A stretch of DNA of 34,509 bases from contig JABDPN010000286.1 in the NCBI GenBank assembly GCA_013042715.1, positions 1 to 34,509 of the forward strand. Direction: 5' to 3'. Under the pieces are notes generated by a model, which did no database searches, had not been told where the DNA came from, and saw only the letters and a program-made list of their open reading frames with translations. Shown here in pieces: positions 5,193 through 12,849 of this stretch; positions within the stretch are counted from its first letter, which is position 1, and every line of letters begins with the position of its first letter. A program made the position numbers and the translations under genes. The DNA comes from Flavobacteriaceae bacterium. Lineage in GTDB: Bacteria; Bacteroidota; Bacteroidia; Flavobacteriales; Flavobacteriaceae.

Positions 5193-5426
5193 ATGCCAAT
5201 TAGTGTAGCTGATTTAAAAAAAGGAGAACGCGGAATTATTGCAGATAGTTCTTCAGAAGCTATTCCTCTTAAACTTCTTGAAATGGGTTGTCTTCCTGGA
5301 AACGAAGTCCAACTTTTGCATCTTGCTCCTTTTTCAGATCCTTTATATCTTGATATTAATGGTAGCCATGTAGCCATTAGAAAAGAAACAGCATCATTAA
5401 TTTTAATCAATAAAATAGATGAGTAA
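5193..5426 (+). CDS. feoA: FeoA-domain ferrous iron transport protein
   Basis: 77-aa SH3-like FeoA: LLEMGCLPGNEVQLLHLAPFSDPLYLDINGSHVAIRKETASLILI. Overlaps the feoB start by 8 nt. Confidence 0.92.
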   Translation: MPISVADLKKGERGIIADSSSEAIPLKLLEMGCLPGNEVQLLHLAPFSDPLYLDINGSHVAIRKETASLILINKIDE

Positions 5427-7518
5427 GCAAATTAATGTTGCGTTAATTGGAAATCCTAATACTGGAAAAACATCTGTTTTTAATGCGCTCACTGGTTTAA
5501 ATCAAAAGGTAGGTAATTACCCTGGAATTACTGTAGATAAAAAAGAAGGTGTTTGTAAACTTTCTAGAAACACCAAAGCACATATAATAGACTTACCAGG
5601 AACTTATAGTCTTAATGCTTCTTCTATAGATGAGAATGTTGTAATAGAATTACTATTAAACAAAAACGACAAAGACTATCCCGATGTTGCTGTAATTGTT
5701 TCTGATGTAGAAAACCTTAAAAGAAATCTACTTTTATTCACTCAAATTAAAGATTTAAGAATTCCTGCAATTCTAGTCATTAATATGGCTGATAGAATGG
5801 ATCGAAAAGGGATTTCTTTAAATATTGAACATTTAGAGAAACATCTTAATACAAAAATTGCATTAGTTAGCACAAGAAAAAAACAAGGTATTGATAAGCT
5901 TAAAAATCTCATAGAAAATTATAGGCAATTGTCTCTAAAGCCATGTTTAAATGCTTCAACCATTGACACATCGTATTTTCAGAATCTTAAAAAAGCTTTT
6001 CCAGATCAAGATTTGTATAAACTCTGGTTGGTAATCTGTCAAGATGTAAATTTTGGAAAGATTTCACGTAATGAGCTTGACTTTTCAAATTTTAAAATTA
6101 AAACTGAAAACGAATTAAAAAGACTTCAGCAAAAAGAAACTATTAAGCGTTATCAGTTTATAAATGCTGTTCTTAAAAAAGGACAAATAATTGATAAAGA
6201 AAAAGCTAGAGATTTTAGAACTATACTTGATAGGATTCTTACCCATAAAGTTTATGGTTATCTAATATTCTTTGTGATCTTGCTTACCATATTTCAAGCC
6301 ATTTATGATTGGGCAAGTGTTCCAATGGAGTTTATAGATGAAAGTTTTGCGTCATTAGCAAATTGGACAAAAGCTTCACTTCCTGAAGGTGTTTTAACTA
6401 ATTTATTGGCAGAAGGAATAATTTCTGGTATTGGTGGCATTGTTATATTTATTCCACAAATTGCCTTTTTGTTTTTATTTATTTCCATACTAGAAGAAAG
6501 TGGTTACATGAGTCGTGTGGTTTTTTTAATGGACAGAATTATGCGACGCTTTGGGCTTAGCGGAAAAAGTATTGTACCTCTTATCTCTGGAACTGCATGT
6601 GCAATTCCAGCAATTATGGCAACACGAAATATTGAAAGTTGGAAAGAACGCCTTATAACAATACTCGTAACACCATTTACAACCTGTTCCGCAAGACTTC
6701 CAGTGTATATAATTATTATTCCTTTGGTTATTCCAGAAGGTCGGTCTTTAGGTTTAAGTTACCAAGCATTATCATTAATGATGCTTTACATTATTGGTTT
6801 TGGGATGGCAGTTTTGTCTGCTTTTATTTTGGATTCTATAATGAAACAAAACCGAAAAACATTTTTTGTAGTTGAAATGCCTGGATATAAAATTCCGTTA
6901 TTTAAAAATGTAGCTATTACAGTAATAGAAAAAACAAAAACCTTTATTCTTGAAGCTGGTAAAATTATATTGGCTATTTCTATTGTACTTTGGTTTTTAG
7001 CTTCATATGGTCCTGGAGATAGTTTTAATAATGCAGAAACTATTGTAAAATCTAACAATACAGAACTTACAGCTAACCAATTAGATAACAAAGTTGCTGC
7101 ACATAAACTAGAGCATTCTTACATTGGAATAATTGGTAAAACCATAGAGCCTGTTATTAGACCTTTAGGTTACGATTGGAAAATAGGCATTGGTCTTGTT
7201 GCATCTTTTGCAGCTCGCGAAGTTTTTGTTGGAACACTAGCTACAATATACAGTGTTGGAAGTGCTGTAGAAGACGAAGATGATAATACCATTAAAAAAC
7301 GTATGGCTGCAGAAGTCCATAGCAATGGCGAGAAAGTGTTTACACTTGCTTCGGGTATTTCGCTGTTGCTCTTTTATGCTTTTGCGATGCAATGTATGAG
7401 TACTTTAGCTATTGTTAAGCGTGAAACAAATAGTTGGAAATGGCCTATTATTCAACTTGTTAGTATGTCTGCAATTGCTTATATATTTGCTTTTATTGCT
7501 TTTCAATTTTTAAAATAA
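5419..7518 (+). CDS. feoB: Ferrous iron transporter B (full-length FeoB)
   Basis: [24 protein letters not shown], then GTACAIPAIMATR and TPFTTCSARLPVY Gate motifs and C-terminal QCMSTLAIVKRETNSWKW. Confidence 0.96.
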   Translation: MSKQINVALIGNPNTGKTSVFNALTGLNQKVGNYPGITVDKKEGVCKLSRNTKAHIIDLPGTYSLNASSIDENVVIELLLNKNDKDYPDVAVIVSDVENLKRNLLLFTQIKDLRIPAILVINMADRMDRKGISLNIEHLEKHLNTKIALVSTRKKQGIDKLKNLIENYRQLSLKPCLNASTIDTSYFQNLKKAFPDQDLYKLWLVICQDVNFGKISRNELDFSNFKIKTENELKRLQQKETIKRYQFINAVLKKGQIIDKEKARDFRTILDRILTHKVYGYLIFFVILLTIFQAIYDWASVPMEFIDESFASLANWTKASLPEGVLTNLLAEGIISGIGGIVIFIPQIAFLFLFISILEESGYMSRVVFLMDRIMRRFGLSGKSIVPLISGTACAIPAIMATRNIESWKERLITILVTPFTTCSARLPVYIIIIPLVIPEGRSLGLSYQALSLMMLYIIGFGMAVLSAFILDSIMKQNRKTFFVVEMPGYKIPLFKNVAITVIEKTKTFILEAGKIILAISIVLWFLASYGPGDSFNNAETIVKSNNTELTANQLDNKVAAHKLEHSYIGIIGKTIEPVIRPLGYDWKIGIGLVASFAAREVFVGTLATIYSVGSAVEDEDDNTIKKRMAAEVHSNGEKVFTLASGISLLLFYAFAMQCMSTLAIVKRETNSWKWPIIQLVSMSAIAYIFAFIAFQFLK

Positions 7519-8104: not shown

Positions 8105-8866
8105 TTATTTATCCTTATTAGATAAATCTAGATTTATACTGCCCCCAAAAGAAATGTATTTCATTTTATGGTTTAATCCAGTTCCGGCAGATAAGTCTAA
8201 TTGGAGGTTGTCTTTTACCAAATAGGTAATTCCAGCATCAAAACTAGCTTCATGATTATCTAACTTAACCAATGCTCCAAAAGGTTCAATATACATACCT
8301 ACTTTTTCAGAAATTCCAATTCCTAATGACAATGAATAGGTTAAATTTCCAGAACCAAATCCAAAATAATCATAACCAACATTGTAACCAAGACCGAATG
8401 TTTCTCCAATATCATGAGCAATAGATAATTTATTAATTGTACCTATTTCATTTAATGTCAAAGCATCTTTAGCTGTTGGAATTATCACATGAGACACAAA
8501 AGCAATATCGGTCTTAATGTCTTGTTTTTTTAGAATTTGAATTTTTGTTCCTAATTGTAAATCTGATATTCCACTAGTTTTATAAGAAGTGAGTTTATCT
8601 TTTACACTTGCAATCTCTGTTAATAATCTCAATTCTATACCTTTTGTAATTCCATATCGCCATAAAACTGTTGGAGCTAAAACTAATTCTTCTGAAAAGA
8701 AATCGTCTTTTGCTGTTCCATATAAAATACCCGTTTCTATTTGAAGTTCTCCTCTTCCTATAGTTAACGAACTTTCGGTTTGATCTGGTCTATCTGTTAT
8801 TATTGTTTGGGCAGATACTGCATAACTCGTTAATAACAACGCAAGTGATACTACATATTTATACAT
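8105..8866 (-). CDS. Outer-membrane beta-barrel protein, MetA-pathway-of-phenol-degradation-like transporter family
   Basis: Signal peptide ...SYAVSAQ; TDRPDQTESS N-terminal motif; alternating amphipathic beta strands to the C-terminus. Confidence 0.7.
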   Translation of the reverse strand: MYKYVVSLALLLTSYAVSAQTIITDRPDQTESSLTIGRGELQIETGILYGTAKDDFFSEELVLAPTVLWRYGITKGIELRLLTEIASVKDKLTSYKTSGISDLQLGTKIQILKKQDIKTDIAFVSHVIIPTAKDALTLNEIGTINKLSIAHDIGETFGLGYNVGYDYFGFGSGNLTYSLSLGIGISEKVGMYIEPFGALVKLDNHEASFDAGITYLVKDNLQLDLSAGTGLNHKMKYISFGGSINLDLSNKDK

Positions 8867-8887: not shown

Positions 8888-10303
8888 TTAAAATAGTCTC
8901 CAAATTTGAGCGACTAAGAATGACACTATAAAGCCTAAAACTACAGGTGCGATTGAAGCTAAAGCTGTCCATTTGGCGCTCTTTGTTTCTTTGTAAATAG
9001 TATAAATAGTTGTACTACAAGGGTTATGTAATAAACTGAATAGCATTAAGTTTACAGCAGTGAGCAAAGTCCATCCTCCAGCTCTTAAAATATCTCCTGT
9101 TGCCGTAACAGAATCTAACTCAAACATCACACCTGCACCTTCGCCACCTGCGATTCCTGTTACTAAAACCGTTAACATTAATATGGTTGGAATGACAATT
9201 TCATTAGCTGGAATTGCGACAATATAAGCAACTAAAATAACGCCATTCAATCCCAAAAGCCATCCAAATCCATCTAAACCATTAATCATCCAATAGGCAA
9301 TACTATAATCACCTATCATTATATTAGAGATTAACCAAATAACTGCTCCTGCAGGGGCTGCAAATACAATTGCTCTCCAGAGAACAATTAAAGTTCTATC
9401 TATTAAAGATGTATATAGTGTTTTCCAGAATCTTGGTGGTCTGTAAGGTGGTAATTCTAGATTAAAGGTAGACACTTCACCTTTTAACACTGTTTTGGAT
9501 AAAGCCCAAGAACTAAAAAACATAAAAGCCATACCTAAAACGGCAATACCTATAACAGCTCCAACAGAAGCTAATCCAGTTAACGATTCTGGAACTACTG
9601 CTCCAATAAATATTGTTGCAATTAATATTTGTGTTGGCCAACGTCCATTACACAACGAAAAGTTATTTGTAATAATCGCAATTAATCGTTCTCTTGGACT
9701 ATCAATAATACGTGTTGCAACAACTCCTGCTGCATTACATCCAAATCCCATACTCATTGTTAAGGCTTGTTTACCATGTGCTCCAGATTTTTTAAATAAG
9801 GCATCTAAATTAAATGCTACTCTAGGTAAATATCCAAAATCTTCAAGAAGTGTAAATAACGGGAAGAATATTGCCATTGGTGGTAACATAACAGCAATTA
9901 CCCAAGCTACCGCAAGATAAATACCATCAATTAAAAAGCCATCAAGCCACCAAGGCATACCCATACTAGCTGCTCCACTTTTTAATAAAGGATGAATTGT
10001 ATCTAGTAATAAACTGGCTAACATGCTAGAAGGATAATTAGCTCCAATAATTGTTAACCAAAGTACAGCTCCTAAAATGAGGAACATTAACGGAAATCCC
10101 CAAGTTTTACTTGTTAGAAATCTGTCTAATTTAGCATCAAAAGTTTGGTTTTTTTTGTTTTTATCTGTTTGAACAGAACGACTCACAATTTCTGAAGCAT
10201 CTGCATAAATACCTTCTGCTAGATTATCGTGAAAATCATCACCAATTTGCCAACGTAACTCGTTAGATAATTCTAATATATTTTTTATAGTTTTCTTTGA
10301 CAT
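8888..10303 (-). CDS. FeoB permease half (split FeoB, nucleoside-recognition/Gate domains)
   Basis: Multi-TM protein with [25 protein letters not shown] and [20 protein letters not shown], corresponding to FeoB Gate regions. Lacks the GTPase domain; starts 5 nt after the GTPase gene stops. Confidence 0.88.
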
Positions 10304-10308
10304 TTTTT

Positions 10309-11091
10309 TTATTTATACAATTCGCCAGATTCTAAAGCTTCAACAATACGTTTATCGCCTTCTAATAATCTAAAAGCAATCCATCTGCTATTTGGTAATC
10401 CTGGAAACTGTTTTTTAAGTTCTGAACTTAATTTCTTTACAGCCTTATTTATGTTATCTGGGACATTTTTAATTCTGTGTGGTTTACAAATTATATTTCC
10501 ATTAGCAACTTCATTTATGGTTGTAATTAAATCAGGAATTCCTTTGTTGAAACGTGCACTTGTTGGTACAACTGGAATACCTAAATCCTTTGCTAAAGCT
10601 CTTTCATCAATTTCAAAATTATTTCGTTTTGCTTCATCCATTAAGTTTAAACACAGAACTGCTTTATTTGTAATTTCTAGTATCTGAATTACTAAATTAA
10701 GATTACGTTCTAATCGACTTGCGTCAACAACAATAACAGTAACATCTGGTTTCCCAAAAAGGATAAAGTTTCTTGCAATTTCTTCGTCTTGAGATGTAGA
10801 TAACAAACTATAGGTTCCTGGTAAATCAACCAGTTTGAACTTTTTCTCGTTATATTCAAAAGCACCTTCTGCTCGTGTAACGGTTTTTCCAGGCCAATTC
10901 CCAGTATGCTGCCTCAATCCTGTTAACGCATTAAATACTGTGCTTTTTCCTGTATTGGGATTTCCTGCTAATGCCACAACAAAATCTGTGTTTTCAATAT
11001 TTACACCTAGTTTTTTTAAACCATTTGCATTGTATTGTGGACAAACCTCACAAGCTGTACTTACTGAATTACTAGTTTTATTCTTTGCCAT
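10309..11091 (-). CDS. FeoB GTPase half (split FeoB, G domain)
   Basis: [56 protein letters not shown]; ends before any TM region; N-terminal CEVC. Confidence 0.92.
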
Positions 11092-11095
11092 CGTA

Positions 11096-12112
11096 TTAAT
11101 CTTTTTTAATTAGAATTCTAGAAGCTTGTTTGTCACGTAAAGCTATGGAAGTGCCTTTTACACTATAAGCTTTAGGATTCTTTAAAGGACTTACCATATT
11201 TATTTTTATAGTTGTCCCTTTTACAAAACCTAAGTCCAAAAGTCTTCGTCTTGCATCACCTCTACATTCTTTTGATATCCCAACAATAGTAGCTGTTTCT
11301 TCTTCTTTTAAACTTGATAATCTAATCATATCCTTTTCTTCATGAATTTCATTTTCAAGAACCTCAACGGTTAAATTTGCAGCTACTACAGGAGCTAATA
11401 CAAACTCTTCTCCTTCAGAATAAAAAACAATGCGTTTTGTATTGCTTTCTACAACTCTAATTTGTGAACCAATATGAATATTTTCTGCAAGTATTTGCTT
11501 GTAAATAACATCTGGTTCATCTTCAATATGAGTAATTCTACCAATGGTATTTACAGGAAGTTTAGAAAGTAATTCACCTTTTAATTCGGCTACTCGTCCT
11601 TTGTGTGTAGGAATTGGGTCTCCATGAGGGTCATACATTGGCTGACCTAATTCTGTAGCTAATAAATTAGTTTCTTCGTGACTTAATTTATGCTCCATTT
11701 CTTCAGCTCTATCATGCCATTCTAGTTTATCGAAACCAGTTTTTTCGGCTAGATATTTTTCCCATAATCTATGAACTCTTATTATTTTAAGCGCATAATC
11801 GCGACCTTCGTTGGTTAAACTTAGAACTTCTCCATCTTGTTCAATTAGTTCTTTTATAGATAATTCCTTTATGGCATCTATAATAACATCATCACTAAAT
11901 TTTAAGCTTCTGGTTAAACTGTTAATACTTGCATTTTCTCCTGAATCTTCATAACGAAACAAGAGCTTTAAAATATCCTCACTTACAATTTTTTGGTTGA
12001 CTTTTAGGTTGTTTCTAAAAATCCAAAACCATCCATTTTTAGGTTTAAAAACATAATATCCTAAAACTAAAAGGACAAAAAATATAATAAGATTTACTAC
12101 TGGATTTGACAT
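11096..12112 (-). CDS. Apparently membrane-anchored DtxR-like regulator fused to C-terminal SH3/FeoA domain(s)
   Basis: N-terminal TM ([16 protein letters not shown]), winged-helix region, [28 protein letters not shown]...YDPHGDPIP (DtxR dimerisation/metal domain), SH3-like segment, then [31 protein letters not shown]...[20 protein letters not shown] (FeoA). Confidence 0.85.
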
Positions 12113-12114
12113 AC

Positions 12115-12774
12115 TTATTTAATTGCTTTTACAAAGAGGTTTTCAGCTACGTTTGCAGAAATGACCATTTTGTTATTATTTATTTTTATTTGTAAAGACT
12201 TATCGTAAGGCTCAATGCTAACCACTTTAATATGATTCCCGATTGAGATTTCATGTTTGTTTAAATATTTTAAAAAATCGTCTGATGAGTCTTTTACACT
12301 AAGTAGTTTGCTTTCTTGATTTTCTTCTAAAGTAGATAGCGACACTTTATCTAAAGGATTTAGATTTCCATTTTTATCTGGAATAGGATCACCATGTGGA
12401 TCATGAGTTGGAAACTCTAAAAAAACCTCCAAATGTTCTATTAATTTTTCAGACTTAATGTGTTCTAATTGTTCTGCAACATCATGCACTTCATCCCAAG
12501 AAAAATTAAGCTTATTAACCAAAAACACTTCCCAAAGTCTATGTTTTCGTATTACAGAAATGGCTGTATATTTTCCTTTATTTGAAAGGTTAACACCTTG
12601 ATATTTTACATAATTAACTAATTCTTTTTCAGCTAATTTTTTAATCATATCTGTAACCGAAGATGCTTTAGTTTCCATCTTGGAAGCAATAGCGTTTGTG
12701 CTCACAGAAATACTTCCATGATTACTTAAATGGTAAATTGCTTTTAAATAATTTTCTTCTGATAATGTAACCAC
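12115..12774 (-). CDS. DtxR/MntR-family metal-dependent transcriptional regulator
   Basis: N-terminal wHTH (LSEENYLKAIYHLSNHG...), [40 protein letters not shown]-terminal SH3-like region. Confidence 0.93.
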   Translation of the reverse strand: MVTLSEENYLKAIYHLSNHGSISVSTNAIASKMETKASSVTDMIKKLAEKELVNYVKYQGVNLSNKGKYTAISVIRKHRLWEVFLVNKLNFSWDEVHDVAEQLEHIKSEKLIEHLEVFLEFPTHDPHGDPIPDKNGNLNPLDKVSLSTLEENQESKLLSVKDSSDDFLKYLNKHEISIGNHIKVVSIEPYDKSLQIKINNNKMVISANVAENLFVKAIK

Positions 12775-12807: not shown

Positions 12808-12823
12808 TTTACTTAAGAGTAAA
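12808..12823. promoter_or_regulatory. Candidate DtxR/MntR operator palindrome
   Basis: TTTACT-TAAG-AGTAAA perfect 6-bp inverted repeat just upstream of the -7 element. Confidence 0.45.
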
Positions 12824-12849
12824 TATTTTTTTAGATAAGCCTAAATTTA

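Follow-up and report, generated by a model that had tools for sequence, protein, structure and literature searches.

Several described proteins come close to the architecture considered here. PgMntR (PG1044) of Porphyromonas gingivalis shares an operon with the Mn transporter FB2 (FeoB2) and binds three Mn per monomer, with an overall Kd for Mn of 2e-11 M (PMC4805248). Binding to its own promoter was seen in vitro at 700–950 nM, even with EDTA present, and only when its FeoA2 domain was included (PMC4805248). In YtgCR of Chlamydia trachomatis, a membrane-fused DtxR domain is reported to be cleaved and then to repress transcription, and permease–repressor fusions have been reported in 11 phyla (PMC5599777). 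On the transport side, GTP-bound FeoB is stabilised by FeoA (PMC8980893).

The locus analysed here lies in a window, meaning the whole stretch of DNA under study, of 34,509 nucleotides from a Flavobacteriaceae bacterium (contig JABDPN010000286.1). An earlier sequence-only reading had placed a 338-residue open reading frame at 11096–12112; the frame is sound, and its strand, absent from that reading, is minus (12112 to 11096). The product is a membrane-tethered protein with a DtxR core and twin FeoA domains, for which we coin the name TMFA.

TMFA resembles PgMntR in its DtxR core, its twin FeoA domains and its linkage to a FeoB-type transporter gene. Going by published residue numbers, the PgMntR ligand positions H85, E89, H104, 108, E111, H112, D132, H134, H166, D169 and E170 would all fit TMFA at a constant offset of 29. 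PgMntR differs in being soluble, in having no transmembrane segment, in its reported promoter binding, and in carrying Cys108 where TMFA has Glu137. The position of its Asp19 relative to Asp46 of TMFA likewise indicates a protein lacking the transmembrane segment, and PgMntR is apparently an unanchored member of the TMFA family. No PgMntR-type sequence was present in the genomes sampled, where family f18 gave only ordinary DtxR proteins. Like YtgCR, TMFA holds a DtxR-like domain at the membrane and is encoded beside a metal importer gene, but YtgCR is fused to an ABC permease and its importer is not FeoB; TMFA has a single transmembrane helix and no ABC-3 or other permease domain (Pfam, AF2 model). 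The FeoAB fusions, as in B. fragilis (PMC8980893), keep a FeoA domain physically near the FeoB G-domain on which it acts, as is proposed for TMFA, but they join FeoA straight to FeoB and have neither a DtxR core nor a separate membrane anchor. The MntR/DtxR repressors (the window's own at 12115–12774; 5zr6, SloR, ScaR, IdeR) share the fold and core ligands of TMFA, but are soluble, keep the recognition helix and wing intact, and have no transmembrane segment and no second FeoA domain. TMFA is thus not unprecedented, since the twin-FeoA architecture is known from PgMntR and a membrane-fused DtxR domain from YtgCR. No description of a membrane-anchored DtxR–FeoA protein was found in the literature searched, outside which most subscription papers fall, and its novelty is provisional.

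The operon and its soluble repressor

TMFA comes second in a minus-strand operon whose order is MntR, TMFA, FeoB G-domain half, FeoB permease half and a Phenol_MetA_deg/porin-like protein. The first gene (12115–12774, GTG start) encodes a soluble MntR/DtxR-family repressor of 219 residues whose DNA-binding domain is intact (PF01325, 1.5e-15). Downstream of TMFA are the G-domain half (10309–11091, 260 residues; FeoB_N, 7.2e-62) and the permease half (8888–10303, 471 residues; Gate, 7.1e-26; FeoB_C, 1.8e-13). A conventional feoA–feoB pair occupies the plus strand at 5193–7518, so the genome has two different FeoB systems, one of them linked to TMFA. The porin-like protein assigned by Pfam (8105–8866) lies 3′ of the FeoB halves; proteins like it also trail the operon in several related loci, and it is possibly an outer-membrane component.

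FeoB lies directly 3′ of the TMFA-type gene in 100 of 100 loci. The sequence-only reading had paired the protein with a split FeoB, and the pairing itself is constant; the split is not obligatory. Among anchored loci 75 have a split and 15 an unsplit FeoB (15 of 90 unsplit), and among loci without the transmembrane segment three are split and seven unsplit, which rules out a strict tie between membrane anchor and split FeoB. An N-terminal CxxC stands ahead of the G-domain in 97 of 100 partner FeoB proteins (CEVC in the window) and is absent from the conventional FeoB at 5419–7518; it may form an extra metal or redox site.

A soluble MntR is encoded immediately upstream of the TMFA-type gene, typically a few bases away, in 57 of the 100 loci and in the window (58 of 101). 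Sequence inspection had already picked out an operator-like palindrome at 12808–12823 (TTTACTCTTAAGTAAA, minus strand). It is real and is one of two boxes, the other being TTTAGGCTTATCTAAA (minus strand) at 12830–12845, of the conserved form TTTAGN6CTAAA and spaced 22 bp from the first. Upstream of MntR the strict palindrome TTTAGN6CTAAA occurs in 28 of 58 loci, compared with 0.10 expected and never more than two across 300 shuffles; relaxing the pattern raises this to 51 of 58, compared with 2.62 expected. Because the pattern was drawn post hoc from these same sequences, the enrichments serve as description, albeit with a very wide margin. Given this conservation upstream of MntR, the 12808–12823 box is most likely an operator of the soluble MntR. 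At loci without an adjacent MntR, boxes were found in only 6 of 33 anchored cases (0.31 expected) and in none of 10 without the anchor. An operator read by the anchored protein itself was rejected as an explanation, since these counts give little support for self-binding by TMFA.

Architecture, ligands and the former DNA-reading surface

The AF2 model of TMFA (pLDDT 86.9, from an alignment of 21 sequences) comprises a helix at residues 4–21, a second at 28–35, a segment of winged-helix (wHTH) shape at 40–99, the DtxR core, and two FeoA domains. The closest solved structures are Mn-dependent repressors, namely 5zr6, SloR and ScaR; about 215 residues share the fold of 5zr6 with a target-normalised TM-score of 0.89 and 27% identity. 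The DtxR metal-binding and dimerisation core, as first recognised from the letters alone, is confirmed at residues 100–169 (11606–11815; PF02742, Fe_dep_repr_C, 1e-23). The FeoA family (PF04023, 5.6e-24) matches TMFA in two stretches, of which the better, residues 264–336 (FeoA2, 11105–11323), is the complete FeoA domain that had been described. The segment before it, earlier called SH3-like, is itself a FeoA domain (FeoA1, residues 176–250, 11363–11587) at 24.1 bits, above the cut-off, and the C-terminus of TMFA is therefore a twin FeoA.

The single hydrophobic N-terminal helix of the first reading is borne out by the model and by hydropathy as a transmembrane helix at residues 4–21 (12050–12103), with a hydropathy of 2.61 and a charge of +4 after it compared with 0 before it. 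All 91 anchored relatives carry a hydrophobic 17-residue N-terminal window (hydropathy at least 1.6), and so the helix is kept in these orthologues, and the same feature is missing from all 58 neighbouring MntRs; because the anchored set was partly defined by leaving out forms without the helix, 91 of 91 describes bimodality and is not an independent count. The other mode consists of 10 relatives lacking the helix, nine of them from Verrucomicrobiota. Net charge is higher after the helix than before it in 91 of 91 anchored relatives (means of +4.20 and −0.35), which by the positive-inside rule would put the metal sensor on the cytoplasmic side together with both FeoA domains. A soluble product from a later start is ruled out: no in-frame ATG, GTG or TTG lies between codon 1 and codon 51, and the TTG at codon 51 is past the conserved E45-D46. 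The short Trp/Phe-rich helix that the model shows at residues 28–35 (WFWIFRNN, 12008–12031) possibly sits at the membrane interface.

The metal ligands are strongly retained. TMFA keeps Asp46 at the position of Asp8 of MntR, and within the core H114, E118, H133, E137, E140 and H141; these are near-invariant, and the full set of invariant or nearly invariant family positions is E45, D46, K49, H114, E118, H133, E137, E140, H141, D161, H163 and D165. The claim that the His/Glu/Glu/His ligands and the Asp8 equivalent persist thus stands, except that the Glu11 position of MntR is Lys49 in TMFA, and so the binuclear MntR site is not fully retained. The THIEDEP motif of FeoA1 (residues 194–200, 11513–11533) is a family signature and a candidate source of extra metal ligands, with H195 present in 90 of 91 anchored sequences and E197, D198 and E199 each in 91 of 91. 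This H195-x-E197-D198-E199 motif is not conserved as such in the neighbouring MntRs, which share only the D198 position; H166, D169 and E170 of PgMntR would correspond to H195, D198 and E199 by published numbering at the same offset. In FeoA2, R288-R289-R290 is invariant across the anchored set.

The DNA-reading surface has fared differently. PF01325, the DtxR DNA-binding domain, gives no match to TMFA even at E ≤ 1, and matches 5 of 30 family members compared with 29 of 29 neighbouring MntRs; PF02742 matches 30 of 30 members. Inspection of the recognition helix, as had been suggested, found it degraded (residues 74–86) and the wing shortened within the wHTH-like segment (residues 40–99, 11816–11995), which also contains E45-D46-x-x-K49. 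Across 58 paired genomes, the recognition helix has a mean top-residue frequency of 0.37 in TMFA and 0.64 in MntR, whereas the cores are equal (0.72 and 0.69); the charge of recognition helix plus wing is −0.78 compared with +2.47. The TMFA family has lost both the MntR motif [SA][SA]V[TS]DMxKKL and the YxKYxG wing. The simplest reading of these sequence patterns is that selection may have relaxed on DNA contacts and continued on metal binding and FeoA surfaces. Members without the anchor from Verrucomicrobiota also have a degraded wHTH, and the loss of residues that read DNA is therefore not tied to the tether. With operator boxes lying upstream of an intact MntR, the degraded wHTH points to the neighbouring MntR, and not to TMFA, as the DNA-binding repressor. 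The chief argument that DNA binding has not been lost completely is the promoter binding of PgMntR: seen at 700–950 nM even without metal, it means that a degraded wHTH may keep some DNA affinity. Such binding is also unlike that of a classical repressor.

A proposed role beside FeoB

The first reading had offered two possibilities, a membrane-tethered repressor or a former repressor repurposed as a FeoA subunit. The second is favoured, given that the transmembrane helix, the metal ligands and FeoA2 have all been conserved, that FeoB is the next gene at every locus, and that the surface once used to read DNA has degraded. What speaks against the first is the presence in the operon of a separate soluble MntR, intact and served by conserved operator boxes. 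We consider it somewhat probable that TMFA is a membrane-anchored FeoA-type subunit whose DtxR core reads cytoplasmic metal and tunes the FeoB GTPase or its gating. The N-terminal helix would anchor the protein, with all other domains in the cytoplasm, where the dimeric DtxR core would bind Mn2+ or Fe2+, probably with further ligands supplied by the HIEDEP motif of FeoA1. Depending on metal occupancy, the two FeoA domains would change position against the G-domain of FeoB and thereby slow or speed its GTPase or gate, a form of direct feedback on import. What was once the DNA-reading surface would no longer be in use, and the separate soluble MntR, at the upstream boxes, would set operon transcription.

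A rival reading is a structural subunit that uses its membrane helix and FeoA domains to keep the split FeoB together and stable, the DtxR core being a mere dimerisation scaffold that does not signal. The twin FeoA, the constant synteny with FeoB, the split FeoB of most anchored loci and the stabilisation of GTP-bound FeoB by FeoA (PMC8980893) all agree with it. We judge it unlikely, as the ligands stay near-invariant in several phyla in which the wHTH surface has decayed, HIEDEP is specific to the TMFA family, and the 15 anchored loci with unsplit FeoB need no assembly. A DNA-binding repressor, either tethered or freed by proteolysis as chlamydial YtgR is cut from YtgC, has precedent in YtgCR and the fusions of 11 phyla (PMC5599777) and in the PgMntR mobility shifts (PMC4805248). 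It seems improbable for a protein whose recognition helix and wing have decayed and lost their positive charge, whose family retains PF01325 in only 5 of 30 members, and whose gene neighbours, at 58 of 101 loci, one for an intact MntR that has operator boxes; moreover, DNA binding needs neither a C-terminal FeoA2 nor constant FeoB linkage. It is quite doubtful that TMFA is a cytoplasmic acceptor or chaperone that takes the ion at the FeoB exit and passes it on without gate control, for although conserved ligands at the membrane face, the extra HIEDEP ligands and the CxxC of 97 of 100 partner G-domains suit that role, DtxR cores bind metal tightly, unlike a hand-off chaperone (PgMntR Kd 2e-11 M Mn, PMC4805248), and hand-off alone leaves the twin FeoA unexplained.

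Returning to the tuning of FeoB by a metal-reading subunit, Mn2+ is the likelier cargo of the TMFA-linked FeoB, and Fe is possible. Transcriptional control by a separate soluble MntR at the upstream boxes points to Mn2+, and transport of Mn by the P. gingivalis counterpart system (PMC4805248) is counted toward it. A strong NRAMP match occurs in 2 of 41 family-bearing Bacteroidota genomes compared with 145 of 355 others (Fisher p 7.5e-7, an optimistic value because the sampled genomes are related); such rarity would fit alternative Mn importers. A single operon (L154) that runs MntR, NRAMP, TMFA, FeoB is likewise taken as a link to Mn. The contrast is absent in Flavobacteriaceae, where three of three family-bearing genomes, this one included, match NRAMP (about 1e-91 to 1e-94).

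A wider account is put forward tentatively: a repressor lineage may have turned into a transport regulator, an anchored DtxR dimer that reads Mn2+ or Fe2+ and gates FeoB through twin FeoA domains, with a soluble MntR encoded in its operon to control transcription. If true, one metal would be sensed twice, by sister folds, at the levels of transport and transcription. The account bears on the mode of action of FeoA on FeoB and on possible metal feedback in Feo importers beyond transcription, and the family unites a known metal-sensor core with FeoA domains tethered beside FeoB. Because the G-domain is often a separate small soluble protein, FeoA–FeoB signalling and its metal dependence could be tested with purified parts. 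The family also provides an alternative reading of the odd metal-independent, FeoA2-dependent DNA binding of PgMntR, and suggests that annotating TMFA-type genes as iron or manganese repressors is misleading.

The family and its distribution

TMFA is a member of a discrete family. In a profile search of 396 Bacteroidota genomes, 41 have a TMFA-family protein at 316–544 bits, and the next-best Bacteroidota proteins, ordinary MntRs, reach at most 159 bits. At a relaxed threshold (E ≤ 1e-60), which also lets in forms without the membrane helix, matches occur in 25 of 199 Acidobacteriota, 10 of 195 Verrucomicrobiota and 4 of 199 Planctomycetota genomes, and in 27 of 119 genomes of the class sampled around an Ignavibacteria locus; this last sample overlaps the Bacteroidota sample, with several coordinates identical, so the two counts are not additive. 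The 91 anchored relatives span Bacteroidota, Ignavibacteriota, Verrucomicrobiota, Planctomycetota and Acidobacteriota.

A 53-sequence tree sets the entire family apart from MntR with support of 100/100; in it the anchored forms cluster at 84/91, with one long branch lacking the helix (L125) inside. The position of the root decides whether the tree implies a single gain of the helix or its loss in Verrucomicrobiota. The relatives without the helix (L114–L122 and L125) are twin-FeoA proteins encoded beside a mostly unsplit FeoB, have no adjacent MntR and also have a degraded wHTH.

Individual loci add further arrangements. One (L154:4248–10921) encodes on one strand MntR, an NRAMP protein with a C-terminal Usp domain, TMFA and the G-domain and permease halves of FeoB; the NRAMP extension was considered as another DtxR fusion, which its identity as Usp rules out. 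A contig labelled Rickettsiales (L025, PBTY01000032.1) has its nearest relative in Marinoscillum (Bacteroidota) with matching synteny, and the MAG or contig label is therefore probably wrong. In another Bacteroidota locus (L152:3307–4791, plus strand), an ABC-3 metal permease (PF00950) continues at its C-terminus into a fused DtxR core and FeoA domain, with no PF01325 match; this YtgCR-like fusion is another DtxR core tethered to a metal importer.
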